Of a stretch of 64,000 nucleotides of DNA, positions 1 through 64,000 are shown piece by piece. Source of the DNA: an uncultured Bacteroidales bacterium (lineage in GTDB: Bacteria; Bacteroidota; Bacteroidia; Bacteroidales; UBA932); contig ONOQ01000002.1 in NCBI GenBank assembly GCA_900319485.1, positions 85,784 to 149,783 of the forward strand, in the 5' to 3' direction. Both the position numbers and the translations under genes were made by a program. Numbering within the stretch: position 1 is the stretch's first letter; each line of letters opens with the position of its first letter. The notes under the pieces are model-generated. The model worked only from the letters and a program-made list of their open reading frames with translations, was not told the origin of the DNA and did no database searches.

Positions 1-1539
1 TACGTGTACACTATGCAGGAGGGATCGGACAACTACCAGTATTTCTACCTCAACTGGTATATGCTCCCAAAACTCCTGATGCAGCCCTGCTGGACTGAGC
101 CCTACACGGACCAGGAGGAGGGGGACGAAGCCACTATGAACCTGGAGATGAACGTCTCCTACTGCAAGCCCATAATCGGCAATGACGGCAATTTCATCGG
201 CGTCATATCCCTTGACATATCGCTCAAATGGCTGTCGGAGACAATATCGGCCGTAAAGCCATATCCAAACGCGTACGCATTCCTGCTTGGCCGCGGCGGC
301 TCCTACCTTGTGCACCCGGACCCTCAGAAACTCTTCTATGAGTCCTTCTTCACCCCGGGGCTTGTAGACGCCCTCACCCCTGAGCAGAAGCAACTGGGAA
401 AGGATATGCTTGAATGGAAGGAGGGCATTCGGAGGCTGGAAGTGGACGGAGATCCCAGTTTTGTCATTTTCAGGCCCCTCCTCACAACCGGGTGGAGCCT
501 TGCCATAGTGTGCCCGGAGTCAGACATTTTCGGCGGGTTCAGGCGCTTCAGGAACACCCTCCTTCTCAGCCTCATCCTTGGGCTCATCCTGATGTTCCTG
601 GTGATGTATTTCATCATCCACCGTCAGATAAGGCCCCTCAGCAGGCTTGCCTCCCACGCGGAAACCATGGCTTCCGGAAACCTGGAAGTGGAACTCCCGC
701 ATATGAACAGGACCGATGAAATAGGCGTCCTCAACCGGGCGTTCCGCTATATGCAGGTGTCCCTTAGAAAGTATATCGACGAACTTACCACCGCCACGGC
801 AAAGCGAGAGAGGATAGAGGGTGAACTCCAGATTGCCCGGGACATCCAGATGGGAATGGTCCCCAGCACTTTCCCCGCTTTCCCGGACAGGAAGGACATA
901 GACCTTTACGCCTCCATGTCTCCCGCCAAGGAAGTTGGAGGAGACCTCTACGACTACTTCATAAAGGATCAGAACCTCTATTTTGCCGTTGCCGATGTAA
1001 GCGGCAAGGGCGTTCCCGCCAGTCTGTTCATGGCCGTCGTGAGGAACCTATTCCGCGTGGTTGGATCGGCAGGCCTGCCTCCGGAAGAGATAGCCCGCCA
1101 GATCAACAACACCGTGTCCGAGGACAATGAGCAGTTAATGTTCATCACTATGTTCATCGGCCGTATAAACCTTGAGGACGGCAGCCTCAGTTTCTGCAAC
1201 TGCGGCCACAATCCTCCGGTGCTCCTGAAGGAAAAGCCCGTATTTATGGAGTGCGAGCCAAACGTTCCGCTTGGCATAGCCCCGGGATTCCAGTTCAAGG
1301 GCCAGAGCATCCGGAATTTCCGCGGCACGCCCATCCTGCTTTACACGGACGGCCTCAACGAGGCTGAGAATTCAGCCCACGAGGAACTTGGCAATGAGCG
1401 TCTCCTCCAGAGCCTTGCCGCCAATCCTTTCAAGGACGCGGAGGCAACGGTGCAGTTGCTCCAGGGGGTTGTATCGGCCCACGTTGGAGACGCGGAGCAG
1501 AGCGACGACCTAACCCTCCTATGCATAGACATCAAATAA
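1..1539 (+). CDS. Membrane-bound PP2C-type phosphatase (RsbU/SpoIIE-like), 5' end missing
   Basis: The frame is open from the first base, so the start lies outside the window; the GTG at base 4 is probably internal. Numbering from base 4, residues 1-180 look like the end of an extracytoplasmic Cache-type sensor (GVISLDISLKWLSE), 186-206 form a membrane helix, and a HAMP linker follows (RPLSRLASHAETMASGNLE). The last ~210 residues are a SpoIIE/PP2C phosphatase with VGGDLYDYF, ADVSGKGVPASLFMA, CNCGHNPPVLL, LYTDGLNEA and SDDLTLL, which carry the metal-binding aspartates. Such proteins typically dephosphorylate a STAS-domain anti-sigma antagonist in a partner switch; no partner gene is visible here, so the target is unknown. 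Its stop overlaps the ATG of the next gene (TAATG), suggesting co-translation. Family assignment is firm; ligand unknown. Confidence 0.9.
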   Translation, partial: YVYTMQEGSDNYQYFYLNWYMLPKLLMQPCWTEPYTDQEEGDEATMNLEMNVSYCKPIIGNDGNFIGVISLDISLKWLSETISAVKPYPNAYAFLLGRGGSYLVHPDPQKLFYESFFTPGLVDALTPEQKQLGKDMLEWKEGIRRLEVDGDPSFVIFRPLLTTGWSLAIVCPESDIFGGFRRFRNTLLLSLILGLILMFLVMYFIIHRQIRPLSRLASHAETMASGNLEVELPHMNRTDEIGVLNRAFRYMQVSLRKYIDELTTATAKRERIEGELQIARDIQMGMVPSTFPAFPDRKDIDLYASMSPAKEVGGDLYDYFIKDQNLYFAVADVSGKGVPASLFMAVVRNLFRVVGSAGLPPEEIARQINNTVSEDNEQLMFITMFIGRINLEDGSLSFCNCGHNPPVLLKEKPVFMECEPNVPLGIAPGFQFKGQSIRNFRGTPILLYTDGLNEAENSAHEELGNERLLQSLAANPFKDAEATVQLLQGVVSAHVGDAEQSDDLTLLCIDIK

Positions 1540-2606
1540 TGAAACTCTGTTTAATTGCACTCTCTCTCCTTGCAGCCGTTTCCTGCGGCCCCGCAAAACC
1601 ATCTCTGAAGGAAAGGATTGACGCCGCCGTGGATTCCACCCTGGCATCCTACACTCTTGAAGAGAAGGTGTGGCAGATATTTATGGTGGGAACCCAGGAA
1701 CTCCAGGACAGCCTCTGCCCGGTTGGCGGGGTTATCCTCTTCGGCTACGACGTAAAGGATTCGGCGAGGCTTGTCCACCTTACCGACAGCCTCCACGCCC
1801 TTCCGGGAAGCCCGCTCATCTCCATCGACGAAGAAGGCGGAAGGGTAGCGCGTATCGGCCGGAACAAGGCATTCAATGTGCCCCGGATCCCCGCAATGAG
1901 CCAGGCTTCCGGCACGGAGGATGCGTATAGGTTCGGCAATACTATCGGCCGGTATCTTGCCCTTTACGGGATAGACATCGATTTTGCTCCTGTGGCCGAT
2001 GTAAACACCAATCCGCAGAACCCGGTGATTGGCGACAGGGCGTTTTCCGATGATCCTTCGGATGCCGCAGAAAAGGTGGTAAAATACCTCCAGGGCCTTT
2101 CAGATGCTGGAATCTATGGCTGCATCAAGCACTTCCCCGGCCACGGAGACACCCAGACGGACTCACACTTCGGCTATGCCCAGAGCCTCAAGACCTGGGA
2201 GGAACTCCTCACCTGCGAGATGATTCCCTTCAAGGCCGGAATTGAGGCAGGGACTCCGCTTGTTATGACGGCGCATATAGCGGTGCCCTCCGTAACCGGC
2301 TCCAATGTTCCTTCAACGCTGTCTCCCCTTATGCTTAAGGAAAAACTCCGCGGGGAACTTGGCTATGACGGGATAATCATCACTGACGCCCTCAGGATGG
2401 GCGCCATTTCAAAGGAGTACTCTTCCGGTGAAGCCGCTGCTTTAGCCTTCATCGCCGGGGCCGATATCCTCCTTCTCCCGGAGAATCCCCTTGAGGCATT
2501 CCAGGGGGTTATGGGCGCAATTGAGGACGGAAGGATCACGGAGGAGCGCCTGGACAGGAGCGTCCGCCGCATACTTGAATTGAAATTTTCCAAATCCATA
2601 AACTGA
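1539..2606 (+). CDS. Glycoside hydrolase family 3 lipoprotein (beta-N-acetylhexosaminidase, NagZ-like)
   Basis: A 355-residue protein beginning [16 protein letters not shown], a lipoprotein signal with cysteine at 16; the start is set by the TAATG overlap with the upstream stop, although an in-frame ATG exists at 1521. Single-domain GH3 fold: [10 protein letters not shown] near residue 92, FAPVADVN, the NagZ-type KHFPGHGDT motif with the His/Asp pair, and [11 protein letters not shown] carrying the aspartate nucleophile. NagZ-type enzymes remove N-acetylglucosamine from muropeptides; lipidation suggests a periplasmic or outer-membrane location here rather than the cytoplasm of the E. coli enzyme. 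Other beta-hexosaminide substrates are possible. One base separates it from aspA. Confidence 0.88.
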
Positions 2607-2607
2607 T

Positions 2608-4020
2608 ATGTCAGAAAAACTTTTCAGGGTCGAGAGTGACCTTATCGGAGAACTCCAGGTTCCCGTTGACGCGTACTACGGTGTCCAGACACAGCGCGCC
2701 ATCAACAATTACAAGATCTCCAACACGCATATGTGCGACTATCCGGAGTACATCATCGCAATTGCATACGTCAAGATGGCCGCGGCAGAGGCAAATGCCC
2801 GCCTTGGCGTGCTTGACCGTGGAATTGCCGATGCTATCGTAGCCGCCTGCAAGGAGATTGTGGGAGGCAAACTCTGGGACCAGTTCCCCGTGGATATGAT
2901 GCAGGGCGGCGCCGGCACATCCGTTAATATGAACGCCAACGAGGTAATTGCAAACCGCGCCCTGGAACTTATGGGCCACAAGAAGGGCGAATACCAGTTC
3001 TGCTCCCCCAACGACCACGTTAACTGCGCCCAGTCCACAAACGACGCCTATCCCACAGCGTTCCGCTACACATTCGTGCGTATGAACCGCAACCTGGTGA
3101 AGGCCCTGGAGGCCCTGATTGAGGCTTTCCGCGCAAAGGGTGACGAGTTTGCCGATGTCCTCAAGATGGGCCGCACGCAACTTCAGGATGCCGTCCCCAT
3201 GACTTCCGGCCAGGAATTCCACGCCTTTGCAACCAATCTCAAGGAAGAACTTGCAAACCTTGAGAGGAACGTGGTCCTGCTGAAGGAAATCAATATGGGC
3301 GGAACGGCCATCGGCACAGGCCTCAACGCCGTTCCCGGCTTTGCGGAACTGTGCACTTCCCTTATGAGCGAGTTCACGGGTGACAAGTTTGAAGTGGCCG
3401 AAGACCTTGTGGAGGCAACCCCCGATACCGGCGCTTACGTGAGTTATTCCGCTGCCCTCAAAAGGCTTGCCGTTAAACTCTCCAAGATATGCAATGACCT
3501 AAGGCTAATGGCTTCAGGTCCCCGCTGCGGCCTTCACGAGATAAATCTCCCTGCAATGGCTCCCGGCTCATCCATTATGCCCGGCAAGGTGAACCCCGTT
3601 ATCCCGGAGGTTACCAACCAGGTGTGCTTCAAGGTTATCGGCAACGATACCACCGTGGCATTCGCCGCCGAAGCCGGTCAGTTGCAACTCAACGTTATGG
3701 AGCCCGTCATCGCAGAGTCCATCCTTGAAAGCCAGACCTGGCTCACCAACGCAATGAACACCCTGCGTGAAAAGTGCATCGTGGGCATCACCGTGAACGC
3801 AGAGCATTGCTACAATATGGTGAAGAACTCCATCGGCATTGTTACCGCCCTTAATCCCTACATCGGCTACAAGGCTTCCACCAAGGTTGCCAAGGAGGCC
3901 CTGGAAACAGGCGGCAGCGTTTATGACCTTGTGCTGGAGCACGGCCTTATGACCAAGGAGAAACTTGACGAGGCCCTGGATCCCGCCGCGATGACAAAGC
4001 CGCACGAGCTTCTGAAATAA
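2608..4020 (+). CDS. aspA: Aspartate ammonia-lyase
   Basis: 470 residues, full length for the fumarase/aspartase superfamily. Visible signatures: substrate-binding [14 protein letters not shown] near residue 99, [18 protein letters not shown] near 131, TGLNAVPGF, and the superfamily signature [15 protein letters not shown] near 318, whose loop carries the catalytic serine. The enzyme converts L-aspartate to fumarate and ammonia in the cytoplasm. In Bacteroidota, fumarate feeds fumarate respiration and the succinate pathway; a class I fumarase is encoded nearby on the other strand and an asparaginase lies at 29.8 kb, so asparagine and aspartate can enter the same pool. It contains none of the ATCGGCC heptamers common elsewhere in the window. 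A 38-bp palindromic terminator follows. Confidence 0.97.
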
Positions 4021-9533: not shown

Positions 9534-9962
9534 ATGTATAAGTACAAAGAGGTAAAGGACAATGCGTTTGTCCTGAGTATTGACAACCATGAGGGGGTTG
9601 CGGCCGCCCTGATGGCTTTCTGCAAGGAGAAGAACATCCTTGCCGGTAACATAACGGGCCTTGGAGCAATCTCGGAGGCCACTTTCCGTTTCCTGAACCC
9701 GGCCACAAAGAAGTACGTGGACAAAACCTTCAAGGAGCAGATGGAAATCACAAACCTTACCGGGAATATCTCTGAGAAGGACGGAAAGCCGTACCTGCAC
9801 CTTCACATCACCGCCAGTAGGAGTGATTACTCGTGCATCGGCGGGCATCTTCTGGAAGCCTACATCAACGGCGCCTGCGAACTTTACGTGGAGGCTTTTC
9901 CGGGGGCTGTTATCGGCCGATACCAGGACCCTGAAACAGGCCTCAACCTTTATGAGTTTTAG
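9534..9962 (+). CDS. PPC-domain (DUF296) DNA-binding protein
   Basis: 142 residues. The reading frame is open further upstream, but that extension runs into the IS end, and the ATG at 9534 begins the conserved MYKYK start. PPC/DUF296 features: ILAGNITGLGAISEATFRFL, PYLHLHITASRSD with the conserved histidines, GGHLLEAYINGACELYVE and a C-terminal GLNLYEF. Prokaryotic PPC proteins form trimers and resemble the DNA-binding part of plant AT-hook proteins; the physiological role is poorly known. The IS sits just upstream, so an earlier promoter may have been displaced; the remaining -7 box implies a leaderless message. The next gene starts four bases after the stop. Confidence 0.88.
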   Translation: MYKYKEVKDNAFVLSIDNHEGVAAALMAFCKEKNILAGNITGLGAISEATFRFLNPATKKYVDKTFKEQMEITNLTGNISEKDGKPYLHLHITASRSDYSCIGGHLLEAYINGACELYVEAFPGAVIGRYQDPETGLNLYEF

Positions 9963-19822: not shown

Positions 19823-20269
19823 ATGACAACAATAGAAAGTAAACACGGCATAGTTTCACGTCAGCCCCACGAGTTATATATGTCCTTCACGGACCTCCAG
19901 AACTTCAAGGCAATGCTCCCTGAAGACAAGAAGGATATGATAGAGGCCACCTTTGACACCATCCAGGCCACCGTCCAGGGCTTCAACATTGGCGTGAAAG
20001 TGCATGAGAGGGTTCCCTACTCCCGCATTGAACTTGTAGATTACGGCGCGCCCTTCGCCTTCCATATTGTCCTTCACTTCGATCCCGCCGCTGAGGACCC
20101 TTACAAGACGGATTTCCACGTAATGGTTGAGGCCGATCTTAACCTTATGATGAAGATGATGCTCTCCGGCAAGGTTAAGGAAGCCCTTGACAAGGTGGTG
20201 GACGGCATTGTGGATGCCTCCAACGGCAAAATGCCGGAAGGGTTCGATCCAAAAGAGTGGATGAAGTGA
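19823..20269 (+). CDS. SRPBCC/START-like domain protein
   Basis: 148 residues, cytoplasmic. The order ESKHGIVSRQPHELYMSFTDLQNF (helix-grip start), a central beta region (VKVHERVPYSRIELVDYG), FAFHIVLHFDP, VMVEADLNLMMKMMLSGKV and a long C-terminal helix fits the START/SRPBCC helix-grip fold that binds hydrophobic ligands. The ligand is unknown. ATG chosen for its position after the -7 box. It overlaps the start of the RNA methyltransferase gene by 13 bases, suggesting coupling. Confidence 0.65.
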   Translation: MTTIESKHGIVSRQPHELYMSFTDLQNFKAMLPEDKKDMIEATFDTIQATVQGFNIGVKVHERVPYSRIELVDYGAPFAFHIVLHFDPAAEDPYKTDFHVMVEADLNLMMKMMLSGKVKEALDKVVDGIVDASNGKMPEGFDPKEWMK

Positions 20270-21420
20270 CGGAGGAATTCAGGATATTACTGGCCGATTC
20301 TGTAGGCGAAGAGAAGGCGGAGATTGCGCTGAAGGCACTCTCCGGGGAGCCTTCCGTATCCATTCGCCTCAATCCAGCAAAACTCACGGAATGCCCGTTC
20401 CCGGACGCTGAAAACGTGCCCTGGAGCCCCTACGGCTACATCCTGAAGGAACGCCCGTCATTCACCCTGGACCCTCTTTTCCACGCCGGATGCTACTATG
20501 TGCAGGACACCAGCGCAATGTTCCCCGGTCACGTTGCAAGGCGCTTTATGGACCGCCCTGGAATGAGCGTCCTTGACCTCTGCGCAGCCCCCGGCGGCAA
20601 ATCCACAGACCTTGCCGCATCCCTCCGGGAACGCTTCGGGGATAACTTCACCCTCCTTGCAAATGAAGTTGTACGGGCCCGGTACAACACCCTGAAATCC
20701 AACCTTGAAACCTGGGGAGACAGCCGTACAGGCGTTGTATCACGCGACCCATCGGCCTTTGGAAGCGCACCTCTTTTTGATATGATAGTGGCCGATGTCC
20801 CCTGCTCCGGCGAAGGCATGTTCCGGAAAGACGCCAAGGCCGTGGAGGACTGGTCCCTTGAGACAGTTGAGTTCTGCGCCGCCCGCAGCCGCCGCATCCT
20901 CTCAGATATCTGGCCCGTCCTTGTCCCCGGCGGCATCCTCATCTATTCCACCTGCACCTTCAACCACTTTGAAAACGACGACACAGTGGAGTGGATAGCC
21001 TCAGAACTTGGGGCCGATATCATCCCACCTGAGGACTTCCCTCCTGCAATCCTCACACGTTACGGGCAAGTTCTCCTTCCCGGCTTCGTGCCCGGAGAAG
21101 GCCAGTATGTGGCTGCGCTGAGAAAGCGCGGGGAAAGTGACTGCATACGCCGCGGAGACCCGCTGAAGATATTCAGGGCAGAGATGCCCGATCAGGCAGG
21201 GCATGACGGCAAAACCGCAGGGCAGGACGCCCCCCACGTGAACGTTGACCGAAAGACTGCCCTTCAGTACCTCCACGGGGATGCGCTGAGGCTCCAGGAC
21301 GCCCCCATCGGCCTTATAACAATATGCTATGAGGGACATCCCCTTGGGGCGGCAAAAAACCTTGGGACAAGGTGTAACAACCTCTATCCCAAGGCTAAAA
21401 GGATAAGGATGGACGTCTAG
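20257..21420 (+). CDS. rsmF: RsmF-like rRNA m5C methyltransferase
   Basis: 387 residues from a GTG at 20257 (the next GTG at 20266 is an alternative). SAM-binding CAAPGGKSTDLA near residue 109; catalytic motif DVPCSGEGMFRKD and second cysteine in YSTCTF, as in NOL1/NOP2/Sun enzymes; C-terminal RsmF-type region with GDALRL and PLGAAKNLGTRCNNLYPKA. It transfers methyl groups to cytosine C5 of rRNA, most likely 16S. Residues ~309-317 (MPDQAGHDG) come from a palindromic repeat unit also present in dnaG, lying in the linker between the catalytic and C-terminal regions. The symbol reflects family membership; the modified position is not proven. Confidence 0.88.
   Translation: MDEVTEEFRILLADSVGEEKAEIALKALSGEPSVSIRLNPAKLTECPFPDAENVPWSPYGYILKERPSFTLDPLFHAGCYYVQDTSAMFPGHVARRFMDRPGMSVLDLCAAPGGKSTDLAASLRERFGDNFTLLANEVVRARYNTLKSNLETWGDSRTGVVSRDPSAFGSAPLFDMIVADVPCSGEGMFRKDAKAVEDWSLETVEFCAARSRRILSDIWPVLVPGGILIYSTCTFNHFENDDTVEWIASELGADIIPPEDFPPAILTRYGQVLLPGFVPGEGQYVAALRKRGESDCIRRGDPLKIFRAEMPDQAGHDGKTAGQDAPHVNVDRKTALQYLHGDALRLQDAPIGLITICYEGHPLGAAKNLGTRCNNLYPKAKRIRMDV
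21181..21207. repeat. GTCAT-type palindrome inside rsmF
   Basis: 27 bases starting GAGATGCCCG and ending GGGCATGAC, encoding MPDQAGHD in frame. The same unit in nearly the same form is found in dnaG at 60027-60053. Confidence 0.75.
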
Positions 21421-22636: not shown

Positions 22637-22688
22637 ACGTGAAACAACGCTTTCTTTAAGTAGAGAGTGTTGTTTCTCTTTTTTTTAG
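22637..22688 (+). terminator. Terminator after queA
   Basis: GAAACAAC (22641-22648) pairs with GTTGTTTC (22670-22677), with additional pairing inside, followed by CT and a run of eight T. The same CGTGAAACAAC sequence also occurs at 22585, directly after the queA stop, as part of a shorter palindrome (AACAACAGTTGTT). Confidence 0.7.
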
Positions 22689-22690
22689 CA

Positions 22691-22731
22691 TATTTTTGGC
22701 GACGGGCACCCCACTGGCGGGGCGCCCGTTG
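22691..22731 (+). promoter_or_regulatory. -7 box and leader hairpin before dprA
   Basis: TATTTTTG (22691-22698) matches the -7 box. Directly after it ACGGGC...CCCC pairs with GGGG...GCCCGT (22702-22728), a strong GC hairpin in the expected leader, ending ~10 bases before the ATG. Whether it controls translation is unknown. Confidence 0.5.
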
Positions 22732-22738
22732 TGCCATT

Positions 22739-23751
22739 ATGAACTATTCAGACGAACACGTGGCGCTGTGCGCCCTGAACAAAATCTTCGGTTACCACCC
22801 CACCCTCGCGGTCTCCCTCATCGAAAAGGCCGGCAGCGCCCTGGGGTGTTTCTCCGTCATTTCGAGCGAAGCCGAGAAATCTCCTCACCCTGAACTCCTC
22901 TCTGAACTCACGCCATCGGCCCTGGAATGGGCCAGGGGGGAACTCTCCAGCATTGACTCCCGGGGATTCCGCTTCCTCACCATCATCGACGAAGACTACC
23001 CGCAGCCCCTCCGGGAGTGCGCCGGCCCGCCGCTGGGGCTATACCTCAACGGCTGCTCTTCACCCACGGAAATTTTCGGCCTCAGGCCCATGATTGCCTT
23101 TGTGGGGACGCGGGACATCAGCCCCTACGGGCGCCTTTGGTGCCAGAAACTGGTGAAGGCCTGGCCGTGGACATCGTGAATCGGCCCGGATGCGGACTCA
23201 TTACGGACTATCCCCTGGGGACGTCCCCCGTGGCGCTGAATTTCCTCCGGCGCAACAGGATAATAGCCGGGCTTGTATCGGCCGTAGTTGTAGTGGAGTC
23301 TAAGACCCGGGGAGGTTCACTTATGACCGCGCGGTATGCCTGCGAATACAGCCGTGAGGTCTTCGCCCTGCCCGGAAGGATTGACGATATCCGCTCTGCC
23401 GGCTGCAATTCCCTCATCCACACTCAGATGGCCCGCATCATCACCTCCCCTGAAGAACTTGTGGGAGAACTTGGCCTTGGGCGCCCCTCCCGCGGTGCCG
23501 GCGGCTCCTGGGCGGCCGGGTCCGGGGCATCCCTTCGGGGAATCCTCACCCGAAAGTACGGGGAATTATCGGCCCAGGTGAGGATTGGGGAAGCCGTGAA
23601 AGAGAACCTCGGAATCACCGTGGAGGCCCTCGCGTCCCTTCTTATCCTCCCCTACCAGGAAGTCCTCACCGCCGTCACCGTGATGGAGGCCGACGGCATC
23701 CTCACCACGGACCTCCTTGGCCGCTGCTCCCTCACCCCGAATTATGCTTAG
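22739..23751 (+). pseudogene. dprA: dprA (DNA processing protein), deleted and frameshifted
   Basis: The first part (ATG 22739, stop 23179) reads as the DprA N-terminus: YSDEHVALCALNKIFGYHP, FRFLTIIDEDYPQPLRE, PPLGLYLNG and IAFVGTRDISPYG. The next frame, joined near 23160, continues with IVNRPGCGLITDYPLGTSP, LNFLRRNRIIAGLVSAVVVVE, TRGGSLMTA and the winged-helix tail. Between KLVKA and LAVDIVNRPG the usual ~45-50 residues with the GLAxGxD and AH motifs of the Rossmann core are missing and the frame shifts, so a functional protein is unlikely. DprA loads RecA on incoming single strands in natural transformation. A palindromic unit encoding VISSEAEKS also interrupts the N-terminal part. A sequencing or assembly error cannot be excluded. 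Confidence 0.8.
22856..22883. repeat. GTCAT-type palindrome inside dprA
   Basis: 28 bases beginning GTCATTTCGAGCGAAGCC and ending GAAATCTC. It has the same GTCAT...ATCTC edges as the other units but a different stem (ATTTC/GAAAT), so it is a separate subtype. Confidence 0.7.
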
Positions 23752-27604: not shown

Positions 27605-27633
27605 TAGAACCACTTGTCAATGAGATGCTTACA

Positions 27634-29037
27634 ATGAAACGGATTGCCATACTCCTAGCCTTTATTCTTGCCGCTGCAGGATGCACCAGCCACAAGGGAT
27701 ACATTACTTACTGTTTCACCTATGACGAGGTTGACGTTCACGCCCAGCCGTCCGACACCTCTGAGGTCCTTATGAAGGCTGTCTGCCGGAGAGGGGATCA
27801 ATTCAAGGACACCGTTGCCCTTTTCTTTGACGACCGATATCCCGTTCCCATCGGGATCCGGGAGATTGATGAGACCGGGAAATGGGGACGGATCAATGAG
27901 AGGTTCCCCTTTGTATACAACTACCACGGTTGGATTAAACTCAGTGACGTCATTGTGCTGGGACCTATGGACAAAAATACCCCAATGGCCACTTATGAAG
28001 CAACGGCTTCCGAGGTTAACCTCTATATGCACCCAAAGGCAAGCGACGCTGAAAAAATTCTGATTTTCGGCAAAGGTTTCCAGTCTTTCAACTACAAGAT
28101 GGAAAAGGGCGCCAAAGCGCAACTGCTGAGCAAAAAAGGCGGATGGGGCTTTATCCGGTATGTAAGATATGCCGATTCCACCAAGGACAGGCCGGTCTAC
28201 GGCTGGGTTCCCATGAAAAACCTCAGACCAGTTGGCGACGTAACATATGAATCCATCGCGACAGGTGTCGCACAGGGTATCCAGGACAAGAAACTTGCAC
28301 AGGCGAAGCATACCGGACCTTTCTTCCAGTGGGGCATAAAGCACTGGAACAAGGTTCGGCCCATATTCTGCAAAGCCTGCGAGTACGGTGCCCTGCTGGC
28401 TCTTATCGTAGCGGTAATCTGCCTTGTTCCTTCCATATTGCGAAAAAGATGGATGGGAACGGTTCTGGTACTGCCAGTATTCGCCGCATATCTGTTCATG
28501 GTGGGCTCATTGAGCCATGGGCCCGGAATAGTATACGGACTGGCCGTACCTGTGCTTGCCGTAGTAGTATCATATCCCCTTCTGTATCTGAGCTTCCTGT
28601 CCAGGGCAGTGGGGACATTCATCCGTATTTCAGGAATAGCCGGCAGCCTGTACGTAATGTTCCTTGTAGAGTTTTTTGCCTACGACACCCTCATCCTGCA
28701 CATCTTCCTGCTGCTGCTATATATCACCGTGGCCTTCAAGTTTACTCAGTATATTGCCAAGAAACTGGAAGACGACGTGTGCCCCAATTGCGGCTTCTAC
28801 GCCGGTCACGATAGTTTTGGGGAAGAGTATATCGGCTCAAGTTCAACAACAGAGCACAGTTCCTATGACGTGTTTGACCACAGTGAAAAGCACGGCAACG
28901 TAATCACCAATTACTACAAGACAATGAGGTCAAGCACTACCACCCATAAAGATTACTACAGCGAAGACCGCTGCTGCGCCAGGTGCGGCTATGACTACGA
29001 GGTCATAAAAACCCGTATCTGGAAGGAGCGTGACTGA
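27634..29037 (+). CDS. Membrane lipoprotein with SH3-like repeats and C-terminal zinc ribbon
   Basis: 467 residues from the ATG at 27634, which gives a lipoprotein signal (IAILLAFILAAAGCTS); an ATG at 27625 would add three residues. Two tandem SH3b-like regions follow (DEVDVHAQPSDTSEV and SEVNLYMHPKASDAEK, each ending in a GW motif such as YHGWIKL and YGWVPM). Residues ~245-385 hold five or six membrane helices. The tail has CPNCGFYAGHD and later CARCGYDYEV, a split zinc ribbon around a Ser/Thr/His-rich stretch. A lipobox plus several helices is unusual; the first segment may instead be an uncleaved helix. Function unknown. It lies between the tatD fragment and intact tatD. Confidence 0.7.
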   Translation: MKRIAILLAFILAAAGCTSHKGYITYCFTYDEVDVHAQPSDTSEVLMKAVCRRGDQFKDTVALFFDDRYPVPIGIREIDETGKWGRINERFPFVYNYHGWIKLSDVIVLGPMDKNTPMATYEATASEVNLYMHPKASDAEKILIFGKGFQSFNYKMEKGAKAQLLSKKGGWGFIRYVRYADSTKDRPVYGWVPMKNLRPVGDVTYESIATGVAQGIQDKKLAQAKHTGPFFQWGIKHWNKVRPIFCKACEYGALLALIVAVICLVPSILRKRWMGTVLVLPVFAAYLFMVGSLSHGPGIVYGLAVPVLAVVVSYPLLYLSFLSRAVGTFIRISGIAGSLYVMFLVEFFAYDTLILHIFLLLLYITVAFKFTQYIAKKLEDDVCPNCGFYAGHDSFGEEYIGSSSTTEHSSYDVFDHSEKHGNVITNYYKTMRSSTTTHKDYYSEDRCCARCGYDYEVIKTRIWKERD

Positions 29038-29072: not shown

Positions 29073-29834
29073 ATGCTTGTGGACACCCATACCCACTTCT
29101 ACGACGAGTGGCTGCTGCCGGACGCAGAGGCTGCCATCCAGCGTGCCATTGACGCCGGGGTAGGGAAAATGATTCAGGCCGATGTTGACTCCACGGAGCG
29201 CCCCCGCATGTGGGAAATCGGCCTCAGGCACCCCGGAGTGCTGTTCCAGATGGCGGGGCTGTACCCCGGTTCCGTTACGGCCGATAACTGGCGCTATGAG
29301 CTGGACCAGGTCCAAGGCATAACCGGAGTTGTGGCAATTGGGGAAATTGGCCTTGATTATCACGAGGGAAGGGAGTTTGAGAAGGAGCAGAAGGAGGTCC
29401 TAAGGCTGCAGCTGGAACTGGCGGCCCAGAGGAACCTTCCTGTGAATATCCATTTAAGGGATGCCTGGGAGGACCTTCTCACAATCTTCAAGGACTGCCG
29501 CCACCTTAATCTAAGGGGCAACCTCCACTGCTTCAGCGGAAGTTATGAGGTGTACGAGGAAGCCAACCGCTATGGAGACTGGTCCGTGGGAATCGGTGGA
29601 GTGGTCACATTCAAGAACTCCAAACTGGCCACAACGCTTGAAAGAATCCCCCTTCACCATATACTTCTTGAGACAGACGCCCCCTACCTTGCGCCGGTCC
29701 CCCACCGCGGTGAGCGCAACGAGAGTTCATTCCTTCCGCTTATCGCCCAAAAGGTCGCGGAGGTCAAGGGCCTCACAATGGAGGAATGCGAAAGGATAAC
29801 AACGGAAAACGCAGAAAGACTGTTTAACATATGA
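29073..29834 (+). CDS. tatD: TatD family metal-dependent hydrolase
   Basis: 253 residues starting MLVDTHTHFYD with the HxH metal ligands; further ligands in IGEIGLDYHEG (Glu), NIHLRDAW (His), LHCFSGSYE (His) and LLETDAPYLAP (Asp). Full length for the family, whose members are 3'-5' DNA exonucleases or related nucleases in the cytoplasm. Residues ELDQVQG are encoded across a perfect TGGACCAGGTCCA palindrome (29302-29314), the breakpoint shared with the upstream tatD fragment. The stop overlaps the asparaginase ATG (ATGA). Confidence 0.93.
   Translation: MLVDTHTHFYDEWLLPDAEAAIQRAIDAGVGKMIQADVDSTERPRMWEIGLRHPGVLFQMAGLYPGSVTADNWRYELDQVQGITGVVAIGEIGLDYHEGREFEKEQKEVLRLQLELAAQRNLPVNIHLRDAWEDLLTIFKDCRHLNLRGNLHCFSGSYEVYEEANRYGDWSVGIGGVVTFKNSKLATTLERIPLHHILLETDAPYLAPVPHRGERNESSFLPLIAQKVAEVKGLTMEECERITTENAERLFNI
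29302..29314. repeat. TGGACCAGGTCCA palindrome inside tatD
   Basis: Encodes the LDQVQ segment of TatD. It is the same palindrome that forms the arrays around the RAYT gene and the point at which the duplicated tatD fragment ends. Confidence 0.85.
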
Positions 29835-30856
29835 AATCGGCAGTATTAGTCATTTACACGGGAGGAACCATCGGGATGAAGGAAGATCCCGCCGACGGAA
29901 CCCTCAAGCCCTTCGACTTTTCCCAGATCAAGGAGGAGGTCCCGGAACTGAACAAGTTCCAGGTGAGGATAGACTCCTACACCTTCAGCCCGCTTATCGA
30001 CTCCTCGGACGTAGAGCCCGCCCTCTGGGTGAACCTCGCGGAACTAATCCACGAAAGGTATGACGACTACGACGGCTTCGTGATCCTTCACGGCACGGAC
30101 ACTATGGCCTACAGCGCATCGGCCCTGAGTTTTATGCTGGAGGGACTCTCCAAGCCCGTCATCTTCACCGGGAGCCAACTGCCCATCGGCGTTCCCCGCA
30201 CGGACGGCAAGGAAAACCTGATATCGGCCGTGGAAATAGCATCGGCAAAGAAGGCCGATGGCTCCGCAGAAGTGCCCGAGGTGGCCATTTTCTTCGACGC
30301 CCGGCTCCTTCGCGGCAACCGCTCAACAAAGTACAGCGCCGAAGCCTTCAACGCCTTCGCCTCCCCCAACCTTCCGCCACTGGCCCAGGCCGGTATCAGC
30401 ATCCGCTACAACTCTGACATCATCCGGAAGCCATCGGCCCATACCCTCAAAGTCCAGACCCACCTTGACTGCCGGGTGTCAATCCTCAAAATTCACCCCG
30501 GAATCACCCCGGCGGTGGCGCGGCACTCCCTCTGCGCCCCGGAAATCCGCGCCTGCATCCTTGAAACCTACGGCTCCGGCAACGCCATTTCCAAGGAATG
30601 GTTTCTCTCAATCATCAAGGAGGCCGATCACCTTGGCAAGATCCTTCTCAACGTAACTCAGTGTAAATCAGGCACTGTGAATATGAACCTCTACGCCACC
30701 GGCGCCACCCTCAAGAACTGCGGGGTTGTTTCCGGCAAGGACATAACCACTGAAGCCGCCCTTGGGAAACTGTTCTCCCTGATGGGCCGGTCAGACAATA
30801 ATGAGTGGGTGAAGAAGATGCTTGAAAATGACATTTGCGGAGAAATAACGGCATAA
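29831..30856 (+). CDS. ansA: L-asparaginase, type I (cytoplasmic)
   Basis: 341 residues, no signal peptide. First active-site block IYTGGTIGMKED (Thr12-region), second block VILHGTDTMAYSASALSFML with the catalytic Thr-Asp pair, plus FTGSQLPIG and LLNVTQCKSGTVNM. Converts asparagine to aspartate and ammonia, which aspA at 2.6 kb can deaminate to fumarate. Four-base overlap with tatD. Confidence 0.95.
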   Translation: MKSAVLVIYTGGTIGMKEDPADGTLKPFDFSQIKEEVPELNKFQVRIDSYTFSPLIDSSDVEPALWVNLAELIHERYDDYDGFVILHGTDTMAYSASALSFMLEGLSKPVIFTGSQLPIGVPRTDGKENLISAVEIASAKKADGSAEVPEVAIFFDARLLRGNRSTKYSAEAFNAFASPNLPPLAQAGISIRYNSDIIRKPSAHTLKVQTHLDCRVSILKIHPGITPAVARHSLCAPEIRACILETYGSGNAISKEWFLSIIKEADHLGKILLNVTQCKSGTVNMNLYATGATLKNCGVVSGKDITTEAALGKLFSLMGRSDNNEWVKKMLENDICGEITA

Positions 30857-37848: not shown

Positions 37849-40758
37849 ATGAATACTCTTAAAAGACTGATGCTTGCCGCCGCCATGCTCATTCTGGCGG
37901 CAGCGGCTGCATTCGCCCAGAACAAGACCATCTCCGGCACAGTTCGTGACGAACGCTCCGAGCCCCTTCCCGGAGCCACACTCGTGGCGGCCGGTAGCCA
38001 GGCTTATGCCATCACCGACGCCAACGGCAAATTCTCCATGTCCGTACGGCAGGGCCAGGAAATTACAGTTTCCTACCTTGGTTATGACGACTACCTCTTC
38101 TCCGTAACCGGCGCGTCGCAGTATACTGTCTCCATGCGTCCCTCGGAGGCCACGATGCTGAACGAGTCCGTGGCTATCGGTTACGGCACCACAACCAAGA
38201 AGGAGGTCACGGGATCCGTGACCAGCCTCAGAAGCGAAGATTTTGACAAGGGCGCGTTCAACAGCCCCGCAGGTATGCTCCAGGGCAAAGTTGCCGGTCT
38301 GACCGTCACCAATCCCAACGGCGGTGACCCCAACGGCTCATTCGAGATCCTGCTCCGCGGAACAAACACCCTCAGCGCCGGACAGGGCCCGCTGATCATA
38401 ATTGACGGCGTGGTTGACGCAGACCTCAGTTCCATCAACTTCCAGGAGGTGGAATCTATGGACGTCCTCAAGGACGGTTCGGCCGCAGCCATCTATGGTA
38501 CACGCGGAACAAACGGCGTAATCATCATCAATACAAAGCGCGCGCGTTCAGGAAAGACAAGCGTGGAATATGACGGGCAGGTATCCATCCAAACCGTTCT
38601 TTCCAGGGCAAAACCTATGACGGCAAGCCAGTTCACAGATGCAGTCAAGGCGTATGTGAACGGCGGCGAGGCATATCTGTACGGCTCCGACACAGACTGG
38701 TTCGAGCAGGTTACCCGTACGCCCGTGAGCCACAAGCACAGCCTGGCCGTCGCCGGCGGCTCCGACAAATTCTCTCACCGCACAGTCCTGAACATAGAGC
38801 AGAACCAGGGTATTCTCCGCAAGAACGACGTAAGCAAATACCTGTTCAAGACCAATATCCATCAGGAAGCCCTCCAGGGCTGGTTAACCTTTGACTATAA
38901 CCTCAGTTACGCCAAACGCAATTATAACGGCACCCGTTCCGGCATTTTCCGCCAGGCCTTCTTCCACAACCCCACAGAGCCTGTCCTGGATCCCGACGAC
39001 AAAGATAACGGAGGTTATTTCACCATCACGGCTATGGACTACTACAACCCCGTTGCAATGCTCAACGAGAGGAACGGAGAAACCGCCGTGGATATGATTG
39101 GCGTCAATGGCCGCGCAACCCTGAACATCCTTCCCGTGAAGGGCCTCAAATGGGACAACTTCATCAGTTACGGCATCACCCGCAGGGAAAGCAGGGATTA
39201 TAAGACCCGCTATTATCCCGGAGAGACCGGTATGATGGGATCTGCAGAAATAGAGAACGCGGCATCTACCGATCTCCAATACGAGACCACCCTCAGTTAC
39301 AACAACAGTTTCGGAAAGCACAATGTTCAGGGAATCCTTGGCTATACATATCAGACCAGAGGTTACCGCAGTTCCTATGAATTCAATTACAGTTTCGACA
39401 CTGATTACTTCGGGACAGACAACATCGGCTCAGGATATGCCTTACAGGATGGTATGGCCGATATGAGTTCCTACCGTTCATCCAGCAAATACATCGCCTT
39501 CTTCGGCCGTGTAATGTATAATTACGACGAAAAATACCTTGCGTCTGTTTCCCTCAGAAGAGACGGATCCTCAAGATTCGGCTCCCAGAACAAGTGGGGA
39601 TGGTTTCCTGCCGTGAGCCTTGGCTGGCGCATCACCCAGGAAGACTTTATGAAGAGTGTCAACTGGCTGGAGGAAATGAAACTCAGGGTTGGCTTCGGCG
39701 TCACCGGCAACCAGGACTTTGACAACTACAGGTCCCTGTTCCTGATGGCCACAAGCGGCCACTACTATTCCAACGGCAAGTGGTACAACACATACGTTCC
39801 TGCCAGCAACGCCAATCCCAATCTGGGATGGGAGAAAAAGTCAGAGTTCAATGCCGGTGTAGACTGGAGCGTACTCAAGGGCCGTCTTAGCGGTACTATA
39901 GACTACTATTACCGCCTGACAACAGACCTCCTCTATGATTATGCCGTACCGGTTCCTCCATACGACTACAAATCATTCTTCACCAACGTAGGATCCATCA
40001 GCAACAGCGGTATAGAGATCACCATCAATGCCATCCCCGTCAAGACCAACAACTGGGAGTGGAATACCACTTTCATATTCTCCCGCAACTCCAACAAACT
40101 CATCAAATTCACCAACGAAGAGTTCCAGGGGCAGGAGTACAGGATTGGCTGGGTGAACACACCTCTGGGCGTTTATACACAGCGTCTGGAAGAAGGAAAG
40201 AGCCTGGGCAGTTTTTACGGTCCTGTTTTCCAGGGCACCGACAAGGAAACCGGCAACGCCATTGTATCAACTGACGATGAAAACCAGTGGGAATGGCTTG
40301 GAAGCGCATACCCCGACTTCAACCTGGGCTGGAGCAACAGCGTTTCCTGGGGCAACCTCAGCCTGAGCGCCACGCTCCGCGCGGCAATCGGCGGAAAGGT
40401 GCTCAACCAGATGAGAGGCGTATACGAGAACATCACCAATATGGGTCTTCAGAACATCCAGGAATCCTGGCTCTACGACCAGGACTATACCGGAGGCGTG
40501 GTGTATTCTTCAAAGTATCTTGAAGATGCCACATATCTCAAACTGGACAACATCTCCATCACCTACAATGTTCCCATTGAGAACAAGTTCGTCAAGGGCA
40601 TCCGCGTCTACGCAACCGCCCAGAACGTGTTTGTGCTCACGGGCTATTCCGGCGTAGACCCCGAGGTTTCACTCTCCGGACTGGCTCCGGGCATTGCTCC
40701 GCTCAGTTACTATCCCCGTACCAGAAGTTTTACCCTGGGCGCCTCAATAACCTTCTAA
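37849..40758 (+). CDS. susC: SusC/RagA TonB-linked outer-membrane transporter
   Basis: 969 residues. Signal peptide (LMLAAAMLILAAAAAFAQ), carboxypeptidase-D-like domain (TISGTVRDERSEPLPGATL, residues ~28-105), plug domain with LNESVAIGYGTTTKKEVTGS, PLIIIDGVV and SMDVLKDGSAAAIYGTRGTN, then a 22-strand barrel ending FTLGASITF. Transports oligomeric or conjugated substrates with energy from TonB-ExbBD. Forms a complex with the SusD lipoprotein encoded next. Context points to ribose-containing substrates. Confidence 0.97.
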   Translation: MNTLKRLMLAAAMLILAAAAAFAQNKTISGTVRDERSEPLPGATLVAAGSQAYAITDANGKFSMSVRQGQEITVSYLGYDDYLFSVTGASQYTVSMRPSEATMLNESVAIGYGTTTKKEVTGSVTSLRSEDFDKGAFNSPAGMLQGKVAGLTVTNPNGGDPNGSFEILLRGTNTLSAGQGPLIIIDGVVDADLSSINFQEVESMDVLKDGSAAAIYGTRGTNGVIIINTKRARSGKTSVEYDGQVSIQTVLSRAKPMTASQFTDAVKAYVNGGEAYLYGSDTDWFEQVTRTPVSHKHSLAVAGGSDKFSHRTVLNIEQNQGILRKNDVSKYLFKTNIHQEALQGWLTFDYNLSYAKRNYNGTRSGIFRQAFFHNPTEPVLDPDDKDNGGYFTITAMDYYNPVAMLNERNGETAVDMIGVNGRATLNILPVKGLKWDNFISYGITRRESRDYKTRYYPGETGMMGSAEIENAASTDLQYETTLSYNNSFGKHNVQGILGYTYQTRGYRSSYEFNYSFDTDYFGTDNIGSGYALQDGMADMSSYRSSSKYIAFFGRVMYNYDEKYLASVSLRRDGSSRFGSQNKWGWFPAVSLGWRITQEDFMKSVNWLEEMKLRVGFGVTGNQDFDNYRSLFLMATSGHYYSNGKWYNTYVPASNANPNLGWEKKSEFNAGVDWSVLKGRLSGTIDYYYRLTTDLLYDYAVPVPPYDYKSFFTNVGSISNSGIEITINAIPVKTNNWEWNTTFIFSRNSNKLIKFTNEEFQGQEYRIGWVNTPLGVYTQRLEEGKSLGSFYGPVFQGTDKETGNAIVSTDDENQWEWLGSAYPDFNLGWSNSVSWGNLSLSATLRAAIGGKVLNQMRGVYENITNMGLQNIQESWLYDQDYTGGVVYSSKYLEDATYLKLDNISITYNVPIENKFVKGIRVYATAQNVFVLTGYSGVDPEVSLSGLAPGIAPLSYYPRTRSFTLGASITF

Positions 40759-40771
40759 TGAGAGATCAGTT

Positions 40772-42352
40772 ATGAAAAAGTATCTATATATACTTGGGAT
40801 GGCAGCCTGCATCCTTACAGCCTGCACCAATCTGGAAGAAACCACATACTCCCAGTTGCCAAAATCTGAGTTTTTCCAGTCCGAGGCCCAACTTATGACA
40901 TACAGCGCCAGACCTTACACCCTGCTGCAGAACTGGGGCGTCGAGCAGAGTATGTGGACTCTTGTGATGCAACTGAGCAACGAGGTTGCGGTACCTAAAT
41001 CCTACAATGGCAGTTGGTCCGAGCCCCGCTACCGCGAACTCCAGACCCACAAGATGCAGACCAACAACAAACTTATCCGCACGGCCTGGGAGTTCTGCTT
41101 CAATGTCATCGCCGGCTGCAATGACGTCATCTACGAAGTGGAGCAATCCGGAGAGATGAATCAGTCCAAGGAGAAAATCATTGCCGAAATGAAGGTCCTG
41201 CGCGCGTACTGCTATATGATGGCAATGGACTGCTGGGGCAACATCCCTTACTCCGTGAGCAAAAAGCAGGAAGGATATCCCGACGTAAAGGGCCGCGATT
41301 TCTTCTTCGGCTTCATTGAGAAGGAGATAAAGGACAATATCGATAAACTGGATGAAAAGCCTACTGCCGTAAATTACGGACGCTGCACCCAGGATATGGC
41401 TCATTTCCTGCTGGCAAAACTCTATCTGAACGCAAAAGTCTGGATAGGAAAAGAGATGTGGGCAGAAGCCGCAGCGGAGTGCAAGACCATTATGGACAGC
41501 GGAAATTACAAACTCACCCGCACCTATAAGGAAAACTTCGACGTTCACAACGAAGGTTCCTCAGAAGCCATATTCGCCATTCCGTACAGCACGGGCATCA
41601 CCACTTCCGACCGAAACGCCTTCTATCCTTTCTGCCTCACACTCAACTCCGATTGTGAGAAAATATGGAACGCCAGCGGCACCTGGAACGGTTCTTTCAT
41701 CGGCCAGCCCGACTTTATGGCATCATATGATCCCGCCGATACCCGAAAGAGCGACACCTGGCTGTTCGGGCAGGTATATGACCTCAACGGAAACAAATGG
41801 CGTATCGCAGTGGGCGTGAACAAGAAGGGAGAGCCCGTCTATCGAGATTATATCCTTGAGGACATCAACATCGCCGAAGACAAATTCTCCTATGGCCTTT
41901 CCCGCACAGACGGCGCCAGGATCATCAAATGGACATACCAGAGCGACGGCAGCCTCACCAGTTACAGCGTAGGTATGGAGAATGACTTCATCCTCTTCCG
42001 TTATGCCGATGTAGTGCTGATGTACGTGGAGGCCCTTATGCGCCAGGGCAAAACCGGAGAGGCCGCGGCCGTTCAGGAATTCAAGGATATCCGCACCCGC
42101 GCAGGCCTGGAGCCTATGAGCGCGGCAGACCTCACCTACGACAATTTCCTCTGGGAGCGCCAGCACGAACTTGTAATGGAAGGCTGGGGACGCCAGGACC
42201 TGATACGTTTTGGAAAGTATCTGGACAAATGGTGGATGAAAGAAGCAGGTCAGGAAAGAGAACTCCTTCTGCCCATCCCCGAGGAAATGCGCGGAGCAAA
42301 TCCTAAACTTCAGCAGAATCCAGGTTATTCAAGTGCAGCAGACGCAGAATGA
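40772..42352 (+). CDS. susD: SusD/RagB substrate-binding lipoprotein
   Basis: 526 residues. Lipoprotein signal MKKYLYILGMAACILTACTN; acidic residues shortly after the cysteine (NLEE) fit a surface-export signal. Helical TPR-type repeats (EKIIAEMKVLRAYCYMMAMDCWGNIPY is the conserved SusD segment, split here as AYCYMMAMDCWGNIPYS) and the C-terminal ERQHELVMEGWGRQDLIRF. Acts as the lid of the SusC channel on the cell surface. Overlaps the first ADP-ribosylglycohydrolase-family gene by four bases. Confidence 0.97.
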   Translation: MKKYLYILGMAACILTACTNLEETTYSQLPKSEFFQSEAQLMTYSARPYTLLQNWGVEQSMWTLVMQLSNEVAVPKSYNGSWSEPRYRELQTHKMQTNNKLIRTAWEFCFNVIAGCNDVIYEVEQSGEMNQSKEKIIAEMKVLRAYCYMMAMDCWGNIPYSVSKKQEGYPDVKGRDFFFGFIEKEIKDNIDKLDEKPTAVNYGRCTQDMAHFLLAKLYLNAKVWIGKEMWAEAAAECKTIMDSGNYKLTRTYKENFDVHNEGSSEAIFAIPYSTGITTSDRNAFYPFCLTLNSDCEKIWNASGTWNGSFIGQPDFMASYDPADTRKSDTWLFGQVYDLNGNKWRIAVGVNKKGEPVYRDYILEDINIAEDKFSYGLSRTDGARIIKWTYQSDGSLTSYSVGMENDFILFRYADVVLMYVEALMRQGKTGEAAAVQEFKDIRTRAGLEPMSAADLTYDNFLWERQHELVMEGWGRQDLIRFGKYLDKWWMKEAGQERELLLPIPEEMRGANPKLQQNPGYSSAADAE

Positions 42353-58721: not shown

Positions 58722-60692
58722 GTGATTCCTAAAGAGACAGTAGATCTTATCCTTGATACCGCCCGGGTAGAGGAGGTTATAGGGGATTTCGTGACGCTTA
58801 AGCGCCGCGGGTCCAGTTATGTGGCCTGCTGTCCTTTCCATAATGAGAAAACCCCGTCTTTCCACGTAACCCCTTCAAAGGGCATCTACAAGTGTTTTGG
58901 CTGCGGTAAGGCCGGAAGCGCAGTGGGGTTCCTGATGGATTATGACCATCTCACATACCCTGAAGCCCTCCGTTACCTTGCAAAAAAATACAATATAGAG
59001 GTAAAGGAAGAGGAAGAGACCGCAGAGCAGATTGCAGCGCGCCAGCGCACGGAAAGCCTTATGGCGGTATCTGAATTTGCCCGTCAGTTCTTCCAAGACC
59101 AGTTAAAGACAGGTGAAGGCCGCGCAGTCGGCTACCGCTATTACCGTGAGCGCGGAATAGAGGACGCCACCATTGAAAAGTGGAGCCTTGGCTGGGCCCC
59201 ATCCGGGAAGGCCACCTTTGTGGAAGCAGCCCGCGCGGCCGGTTACAAGGACGAATTCCTTGTGGCGGCAGGCCTTGCCATCCAGCAGGAAGACGGCACC
59301 CTCATTGACAAGTTCCGTGAAAGGGTGATGTTCCCCATCCACTCCGTGAGCGGACGCGTCATTGCCTACAGCGGCCGTACGCTCAAAAGTGACAACCCCG
59401 CAAAGTACGTAAACTCCCCGGAAACGGAGATTTACATAAAGAGCAGGAATCTCCTTGGAATCTACCTTGCCAAAAGCGAGATAGCAAAGCAGGACTGCTG
59501 CATCCTTGTGGAAGGCAACGTGGACGTTGTGATGATGCACCAGATGGGCATTACCAACGTAGTCGCCTCCTGCGGCACCTCCCTCACGGAGGAGCAGATC
59601 CGCCTCATAAAGCGCTTCACGGAGAACATCACCATCATGTACGACGGCGACAAAGCCGGTCTCCACGCCGCTCTCCGCGCTATAGGGATGATCCTCAAGG
59701 AAGGGATGAACCCCAAGGTGGTGTTCCTCCCTGACGGCGATGACCCGGATTCCTTCTCCCGCAAGCACACGCTGGAGGAGATACGGGAATTCATATCGGC
59801 CCACCAGCAGGATGGCATCGCCTTCAAGACGGACCTTCTCCTGGGAGAGGCCGGCGACGACCCCCTCAAGAAGGCCAACCTCATCAACGAGATAGCGGAT
59901 ACAGTGGCCGATATCCCGGACGCCATCAAGCGCCAGGTGTACGTGGACACCGTTGCCCGCCGCTTCGCAATTGAGGCCGATATTATCCAGGACCGCGTGC
60001 GGAAAACCCGGGAGAATGCCAGGAAGGAGATGCCCGGTCGGGCCGGGCATGACGGCAGAGGACAGGCCGGCGGTCAGGGCAGCGATGAGCGCGTCATGGC
60101 CGACACCGATCGGCCATCTCAAGCCGCAGCGCCAAGAATCGGCAATATAACAGAGCCATCGGAGCGTGAACTTCTAGGCTTCATCCTTCGGCACGGATGC
60201 TCGGAACTGAAGTTTGAGACGGACTCGGAGTTCTATAACCCTGACGGTTCCCAGACCGTAGCGGAATTCATAGACGCCGCCCTTAACGGAGACAACGCCG
60301 CATTCTCAAACCCCGCCTACCAGGCAGCATACAACGCATATTTCGCCCTCTACGACGAAGGCCTGGACCAGGACGGCATAGTGCGTTCACTCCTCAACGG
60401 CGAAGACCGCACCGTTGCCGCGGTGGTGGCAGACCTTGCCACGGAAAAGTATGAACTCACCGTCCATAACTTTTCCGACGCCCTCACCACCACGGATTCC
60501 TGGCTGGTGACCTATGTGCCCCGCGCCATACTTGCCTACCACGACAAACGCCTCCAGGCCCAGCAGGCCGATATTAACCGCCGCCTGGCACAGGCAACCC
60601 CGGAAGAGGCCACACAGCTTCTGACGGAACTGAGCAGCATCAATGCCCTCAAGAAGACCATCAACATAAAACTTGGAAGAATAAAGAAATGA
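58722..60692 (+). CDS. dnaG: DNA primase
   Basis: 656 residues from a GTG start, three bases after the previous stop. Zinc-binding [13 protein letters not shown] and [18 protein letters not shown] polymerase domain NVIGFGGR-like region ([13 protein letters not shown]), [20 protein letters not shown] with the acidic residues and [20 protein letters not shown]. Makes RNA primers for replication. Residues ~436-467 (starting MPGRAGHDG, ending DTDRPSQ) are encoded by two facing palindromic repeats at the junction with the C-terminal helicase-binding domain, apparently an in-frame insertion tolerated in a linker. Confidence 0.96.
60027..60120. repeat. Pair of GTCAT-type palindromes inside dnaG
   Basis: Unit 1 (60027-60053) starts GAGATGCCCGG and ends CCGGGCATGAC; unit 2 (60093-60120) starts GTCATGGCCGA and ends TCGGCCATCTC. 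They face each other across 39 bases, the same arrangement as in the permease gene. Confidence 0.8.
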
Positions 60693-63677: not shown

Positions 63678-63982
63678 TATAGTTGACTCTGGCAACTGCG
63701 GAAAATAATGATAATTGGTTTTTGTTTTATAGTTTTTTCCGTGGTTGCCTTTCTAGATATGAAAGGAACAAGTCCTCGTCCGGACATTGAGAATTCTTGA
63801 TAAGTGTTCTGAACCTGGAACGGCTAGTTCTTAGGCTGCCGGTAGAATGGCTCCTCATAATATACTGTATAATCTCGTACGGGACATTTGCAAAATACAA
63901 AGACATTGCTGTCCACTAAAAGTTGTGGACGATTATTATAAGGTTTAACATTTAAAACAAACTAAGTTCATCAAAACTATTT
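63678..63982. other. Gene-free stretch before the probable rRNA operon
   Basis: AT-rich, no convincing frame. Holds one small hairpin (GTCCAC 63911-63916 with GTGGAC 63925-63930). A promoter for a downstream rRNA operon would be expected here, but I cannot pick one with confidence. Confidence 0.4.
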
Positions 63983-63995
63983 TGCTCTTTGACAA
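63983..63995 (+). promoter_or_regulatory. rrn-type boxA antitermination site
   Basis: TGCTCTTTGACAA closely matches the E. coli rrn boxA TGCTCTTTAACAA, where NusB and S10 bind the nascent RNA. It sits at the very end of the window in the plus direction, suggesting that a 16S rRNA gene begins shortly beyond. Confidence 0.65.
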
Positions 63996-64000
63996 TATTG

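Follow-up and report, generated by a model that had tools for sequence, protein, structure and literature searches.

ATCGGCC, a dense and strand-symmetric DNA word in one Bacteroidales clade, as a possible self-DNA recognition signal

To our knowledge, DNA uptake words are known only from two proteobacterial families. Among other short genome words, Chi sites are asymmetric and chromosome-rich, and KOPS-like signals (KOPS, FtsK-orienting polar sequences) are polar along the chromosome. Here we describe the heptamer ATCGGCC (reverse complement GGCCGAT), which recurs throughout a stretch of 64,000 nucleotides from an uncultured Bacteroidales bacterium (UBA932; assembly GCA_900319485.1, contig ONOQ01000002.1, positions 85,784 to 149,783 of the forward strand), in the following called the window. 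An original prediction, made from the letters of this stretch alone, had proposed an uptake, recombination or chromosome-organisation signal. ATCGGCC shares with Chi its shortness, asymmetry and abundance on the chromosome, but shows no strand or sense bias, and its codon-corrected enrichment is stronger than that of Escherichia coli Chi.

The available text of a study on neisserial DNA uptake sequences (DUS) describes them as highly conserved, core-rich, poor in diversifying regions and absent from recently acquired genes (PMC2397512), and the accessible part of a second study reports that single-mismatch forms of DUS and of uptake signal sequences (USS) are enriched (PMC1939737). As far as these texts describe the words of Neisseriaceae (DUS) and Pasteurellaceae (USS), ATCGGCC is similar in being a short, asymmetric and dense word that is strongly conserved, core-rich, poor in acquired DNA and common to related species (PMC2397512, PMC1939737). 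It differs in its Bacteroidales host, in its 7-bp core, in the lack of a pilus-type ATPase over the cut-off in 12 word-rich genomes and in its single-mismatch forms, which are not enriched as a set. With the highly iterated palindrome HIP1 and the alternate HIPs of cyanobacteria, as presented in the accessible text of PMC4390886, it has in common that it is a very frequent genome word varying between lineages, whereas it is not a palindrome and has no shared methyltransferase in the four families tested.

Abundance, codon context and shape of the word

The window holds 112 exact copies of ATCGGCC/GGCCGAT, 63 on the plus and 49 on the minus strand, while 100 dinucleotide shuffles gave a mean of 11.2 (standard deviation 3.0, maximum 18). 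This agrees with the roughly 110 copies, and 10 expected ones, of the original prediction, whose ten example positions were exact or 1–3 bases off (1851 is 1854, 20752 is 20751 and 53628 is 53629). The first copies start at 246, 1156, 1473, 1854, 1944, 1994, 2459, 4240, 5399, 5552, 5603, 5854, 6761, 7592, 7641, 8389, 8452, 9912, 9915 and 10391, and the last ones at 60109, 60566, 60752, 61039 and 63212. The genome holding the window (G000; a draft of 2,506,427 bases in 91 contigs, 93.5% complete) contains 1883 + 1914 = 3,797 copies, or 1.5 per kb, compared with 139 + 159 = 298 copies of the reversed control word. Further counts refer to a working sample of the window and 20 further stretches of G000 (399,274 bases, 572 word copies), with order-2 models and synonymous codon shuffles as backgrounds; maximal-order Markov z-scores were dropped because the sub-words are also rich and mask the word. 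Dispersed repeats were rejected as its source, as only 28 of the 572 sites lie within repeats.

We called 325 genes with our own codon-score script, which is not a standard gene finder, and these contained 521 copies in comparison to 83.4 ± 8.7 after synonymous codon shuffling within genes (6.2-fold). All six codon phases exceeded the shuffles, by factors of 2.3 to 28; the least frequent two of them are represented by only 6 and 7 copies. The strongest excess was found in the phases nnA TCG GCC (152 found, 5.3 expected) and GGC CGA Tnn (27 found, 1.5 expected), and the word holds 152 of the 659 TCG codons and 27 of the 156 CGA codons. Non-coding DNA carried 50 copies versus 6.1 expected (8.2-fold). 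The coding copies were split into 268 sense and 253 antisense ones without a preference for the transcription strand, and the contig strands were balanced over the 21 stretches of the draft genome (χ2 13.6, p 0.89). Together, the excess in all phases, the parity of sense and antisense and the excess in non-coding DNA speak against causes at the level of amino acids, codon pairs or RNA. The original prediction had noted several codon phases and suggested an effect on DNA rather than protein; this is well supported, as selection or drive, by the same data and by the conservation in sister genomes described below, and the enrichment is not a codon-pair bias in one phase. In nine pooled low-word genomes, the word was found at 0.8-fold. 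Its mean density in the whole genome corresponds to a site every 660 bp or so, counting both strands. The sites are clustered (coefficient of variation 1.30), which rules out a regular spacing, and this unevenness arises in part because some loci are word-poor.

At the last position of the ATCGGC core, C was enriched 6.3-fold and A 2.3-fold, with G at 0.8 and T at 0.9. Changes at positions 4–6 were found at 0.37–0.60 of expectation in six of nine cases and at 0.73, 0.89 and 1.03 in the other three; the near-word ATCGGGC was equally low in low-word genomes. The only single-mismatch forms above 1.4 of expectation were A1>T, T2>A, T2>C, C3>G and C7>A. Coding sites (codon-position corrected and pooled with those of the sister genome G299) and 100 non-coding sites alike showed a weak extended preference, aHATCGGCCnya, in which G is avoided at −1 and A at −2, Y at +8 and A at +9 are favoured. 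On its 3′ side, the word had an A+T excess of 1.18, with 1.01 ± 0.06 (maximum 1.27) for 60 control words, both of whose ends were counted. Two copies may also overlap as the palindrome ATCGGCCGAT, which is located at 9912..9921 of the window and occurs 13 times in the 399-kb sample. Other words of this sample were underrepresented: several short-palindrome words (CATG, AGCT and GATC contexts) were depleted, perhaps by restriction avoidance, and CCTCGAG was found 8 times versus 91 expected, although the codon-shuffle expectation for TCG-containing words may be inflated.

Conservation and distribution

The position conservation in sister genomes that the original prediction had suggested to check was found in both close relatives. 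Over 96,320 bases aligned between G000 and G299 at 88.5% identity, 143 of 175 word sites were identical, compared to 52.4% of all 7-mers and 1,556 of 3,015 same-letter 7-mers with one CpG. Among 205 word cells, 24 (11.7%) differed by one base, as did 41.7% of the control cells; three to five bases differed in 12.7% of the word cells and 8.7% of the control cells. What the sister carried in place of the word was mixed. In G295, 35 of 40 word sites were conserved, again above the controls. This pattern shows that point losses of the word are removed or repaired, by selection or drive. Smaller alignments at 75–79% DNA identity gave 7 of 16 sites for G241 (control 21%) and 6 of 17 for G237 (control 25%), and no excess for G137, with 7 of 28 sites shared (control 24%). 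These three genomes are themselves word-rich; at this distance, word sites turn over and the density is maintained. A lower identity adjoining the word sites, as reported for DUS, gave no clear signal in our alignments.

The word is concentrated in one lineage of a genus that may be Candidatus Cryptobacteroides. In a sample of 200 genomes including G000, drawn evenly from a larger group, 29 carried at least five times as many copies as of the control word (counted by eye), and the density within the genus forms a gradient from 0.1 to 1.7 per kb. A DnaG tree placed 22 genomes in one clade (support 100/100) with 0.48–1.69 copies per kb throughout; its 63 rows were chosen by us, are skewed to rich and close genomes and leave out the rich G240, G263 and G191. 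With a threshold of our own choice at 0.55 per kb, the word-rich label needs 5 changes on this tree (19.4 after shuffling), because four rows above the threshold lie outside the clade, the highest at 1.03. Among 119 genomes of the family, only G000 and G084 exceeded the threshold, both belonging to the genus of the window, and in the other families of the order, represented by 289 genomes, no density rose above about 0.4 per kb (both by reading). The named relative Bacteroidales bacterium UBA4230 (L001) carries 23 copies in 21.4 kb. In some genomes of the order, such as G346 and G558, ATCGGCC is nearly absent (0–10 copies) and the control word present, which may reflect avoidance of GGCC.

Genus samples of 20 to 40 kb also contained other words, for example CATCGAC in G300, G180 and G264 and CCTGCAG in G212, that stood at 4- to 10-fold over the order-2 background. 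Re-testing 17 genomes by codon shuffling left CATCGAC, CCTGCAG and CTTGCCG at 0.9- to 2.9-fold, and they were rejected as comparable words. CATCGAC, which reached 2.9-fold in L084 (G300) and 2.7-fold in L090 (G220) after codon shuffling of 20 kb, might be a weaker second word. No comparable dispersed word was detected in 19 stretches of other genera, one further stretch consisting only of N being excluded; the strong words of two of these stretches were a local repeat cluster and a dinucleotide tract, and the remaining ones were not codon-tested. GTTCACG occurs 20 times in 20 kb of L067 (G262:C3:36001-56000), nine of these copies in a tandem array of ~52 bp units at 14129-14544 and the rest scattered.

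Phage DNA and a variable locus contained fewer copies. A prophage stretch of G000 (L054, G000:C80:1-20000) carried 4 coding copies versus 3.8 expected, which is the chance level. Its first part encodes a terminase, a portal and a head protein, 5 of 10 searched genes had no PHROG match, and its relatives are IMG/VR contigs with 93–97% protein identity. In a set of 39 phage contigs, from which one duplicate contig had been removed, the 30 related contigs held 46 copies versus 58.2 expected. A fimbrillin-type locus had the lowest enrichment of the 20 non-prophage stretches (2.6-fold; the remaining 19 at 3.8- to 12.4-fold). Of 174 genes longer than 900 bp, 40 were word-free in comparison to 22 expected, and a Pfam search with ten of the 40 identified one SusD, two DUF4832 proteins, a class II tRNA synthetase and a few others, four remaining without a family; ten of the densest genes encode mostly enzymes. 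Judged from these examples, and not from a full core/accessory test, the word tends to be rich in core and poor in accessory DNA.

Proposed self-DNA recognition and rival explanations

These observations establish that the word is enriched at the level of DNA, symmetric between the strands, conserved, concentrated in a clade and at chance level or low in phages. Such a DNA-level, strand-blind, conserved, lineage-bound and phage-poor pattern is the one reported for neisserial DUS (PMC2397512) and, together with competence in Riemerella, favours a self-DNA signal. According to the accessible text of PMC7965970, the naturally competent Bacteroidota member Riemerella columbina has a preference for self-DNA, for which no word is established, and the part of PMC8459023 available states that competence of R. 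anatipestifer needs ComEC, DprA, ComF, RecA and proteins of unknown function. With a confidence slightly short of even, we regard ATCGGCC as a word of the DUS/USS type by which self-DNA is recognised, and which would serve uptake or recombination via other machinery. We infer that a word-binding protein exists and that the process is uptake or recombination. A DNA-handling protein in uptake or homologous recombination would prefer fragments with ATCGGCC and its weak flanks. Chromosomal recombination of such fragments would spread and preserve the word in shared, freely recombining genes, and phages and fast-changing surface loci would remain poorer in it. The word may work like a DUS, while two DUS features, the pilus machine and the halo of mismatch forms, were not found.

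Several observations weigh against this reading. We compared 12 high-word draft genomes (76–97% complete) with 12 low-word ones. The pilus-type T2SSE ATPase PF00437 was found over the cut-off in none of the 12 rich genomes and in one of the 12 low ones, pilin families not being searched; all other genomes of the 24 gave weak matches only. The known DUS/USS machine thus seems to be missing, and the machinery would have to be specific to Bacteroidota. The ComEC Competence domain was present in 30 of 30 genomes, whether word-rich or word-poor, and the ComEC-like open reading frame (ORF) of G000 has 362 amino acids with the Competence domain alone. Moreover, dprA of G000 is split over two frames (22667-23751 of the window, plus strand), with an N-terminal piece at 22667..23179 (Pfam DNA_processg_A positions 3-68), a C-terminal piece in another frame at 23017..23751 (positions 113-210; 3 word copies) and about 44 profile positions missing. 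It lies in one open frame in relatives (410 amino acids in L001, 401 in G299, L104), and the break is either a loss in G000 or an assembly fault. Single-mismatch words as a set were found 1,201 times versus about 1,182 expected (hand-summed), which is no enrichment, and nine closer phage contigs held 36 copies versus 19.4 expected (1.85-fold). T at −3 and A at +10 were favoured in coding sites but not in non-coding ones, and at least one control word had a stronger A+T flank than ATCGGCC. Finally, the conservation is compatible with drive and with plain selection alike and does not separate them.

Of the signals proposed originally, an uptake-like one fits best. A Chi-like one fits less well because ATCGGCC shows neither strand nor transcription bias (p 0.89 over 21 stretches; 268:253), whereas E. 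coli Chi has both: in four 50-kb stretches run through the same pipeline, Chi was found 61 times versus 26.2 after codon shuffling (2.3-fold), 50:11 toward the gene sense strand and strand-skewed in three of the four. It is unlikely, if still plausible, that ATCGGCC makes a RecBCD/AddAB-like enzyme of the clade switch from degradation to recombination, leading to repair of the cell's own DNA and destruction of that of phages; such a role would agree with the chromosome-rich and phage-poor pattern, the conserved sites and a word that is short, strict and asymmetric. We consider it distinctly unlikely that the word, in the manner of HIP1, plays no part in uptake and is made by mismatch repair with a bias or by a correction linked to methylation. 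For the HIP sequences, the accessible text of Elhai (PMC4390886) describes an association with cognate methyltransferases and puts forward a model based on repair. The six of nine near-words at positions 4–6 with 0.37–0.60 of expectation look as if pulled to the word, but ATCGGCC is not palindromic, the sister states opposite it are mixed, and no single T:G-type neighbour is uniquely depleted, which gives no support to a Vsr-like repair drive. No methyltransferase of four families was common to the 12 rich genomes, with matches over the cut-off for PF01555 in 2, PF00145 in 2, PF02384 in 5 and PF02086 in 2 of them (8, 5, 7 and 4 of the 12 poor genomes, respectively) and for none of these in the rich drafts G237, G137, G248 and G303; further methylase families, e.g. 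Eco57I-type, lay outside this search. Of the partners that the original prediction had suggested to look for, neither a receptor nor, in these four families, a shared methyltransferase was found.

A site for a chromosome-organising protein, that is a nucleoid or segregation factor acting genome-wide, would suit the occurrence of a site roughly every 660 bp, with both strands included, and the fewer sites in phages and one surface locus; since the spacing is clustered and no KOPS-like polarity is seen, we hold it to be improbable. A side effect of base composition, codon usage, codon-pair bias or dispersed repeats matches the fact that some phases correspond to common codons (ATC GGC), but it is already refuted by the 6.2-fold excess over synonymous shuffles in all phases, the 8.2-fold excess in non-coding DNA, the 0.8-fold value in low-word genomes and the few sites in repeats, and has next to no probability.

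Under self-DNA recognition, the strength of the word would indicate that this group of gut-type Bacteroidales routinely exchanges genes in a self-directed way. The word also offers a sequence bait with which the receptor could be sought, and the gradient within the genus makes it possible to follow how such words arise and decay. Tentatively, and with the chances somewhat against it, we would see here a self-DNA word of Bacteroidales that functions independently of type IV pili and is read by a novel putative receptor. It would be the first sequence known in the phylum for uptake, or for licensing recombination, and would have risen to its high density within a single genus. Literature searches for ATCGGCC/GGCCGAT as whole words, with most subscription papers outside reach, for 'DNA uptake sequence' with Bacteroidetes and overrepresented, and for Cryptobacteroides with natural transformation returned no paper.

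Genes and repeats of the window

The original prediction had named rsmF, dprA, M16 and dnaG as dense, and this was borne out. The gene for an rsmF-like rRNA methyltransferase (20257..21420, plus strand) contains 5 copies (4.3 per kb), dnaG (58722..60692, plus strand), the source of the family tree, also 5, and the M16 peptidase gene 4, next to the dprA piece described above. The densest called gene of the window encodes an asparaginase (29831..30856, plus strand; 5 copies, 4.9 per kb). Among the genes predicted to be poor, the aspA/fumC-type lyase is indeed free of the word and the SusC-type receptor gene has 1 copy in 2.9 kb; with 1 copy in SusD, the SusC/SusD pair (37849..42352, plus strand) is word-poor (2 copies in 4.5 kb). 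Fumarase is not poor as supposed; its 2 copies in 1.6 kb come close to the mean of the genome. For the exb genes, the expectation of few copies holds for the ExbB-like gene (1 copy); the next three ORFs have none. An accessory gene at 27625..29037 (plus strand), for which UBA4230 and one of the 60 further genomes sampled from the genus gave a match, has no word copy.

An ISL3-type transposase gene at 7751-9472, skipped by the codon-based gene caller, contains two word copies. Repeats built on the palindrome TGGACC(A/T)GGTCCA form a cluster at 23911-24328, 25328-25530 and 27152-27568 and surround a gene at 24374-25282 with a weak match to Y1 transposases, an arrangement which we take to resemble a REP/RAYT-type element. 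Within the last of these intervals, a 257-bp partial copy at 27152-27408, aligned to 29064-29320, is 90% identical to the start of a tatD-like gene.

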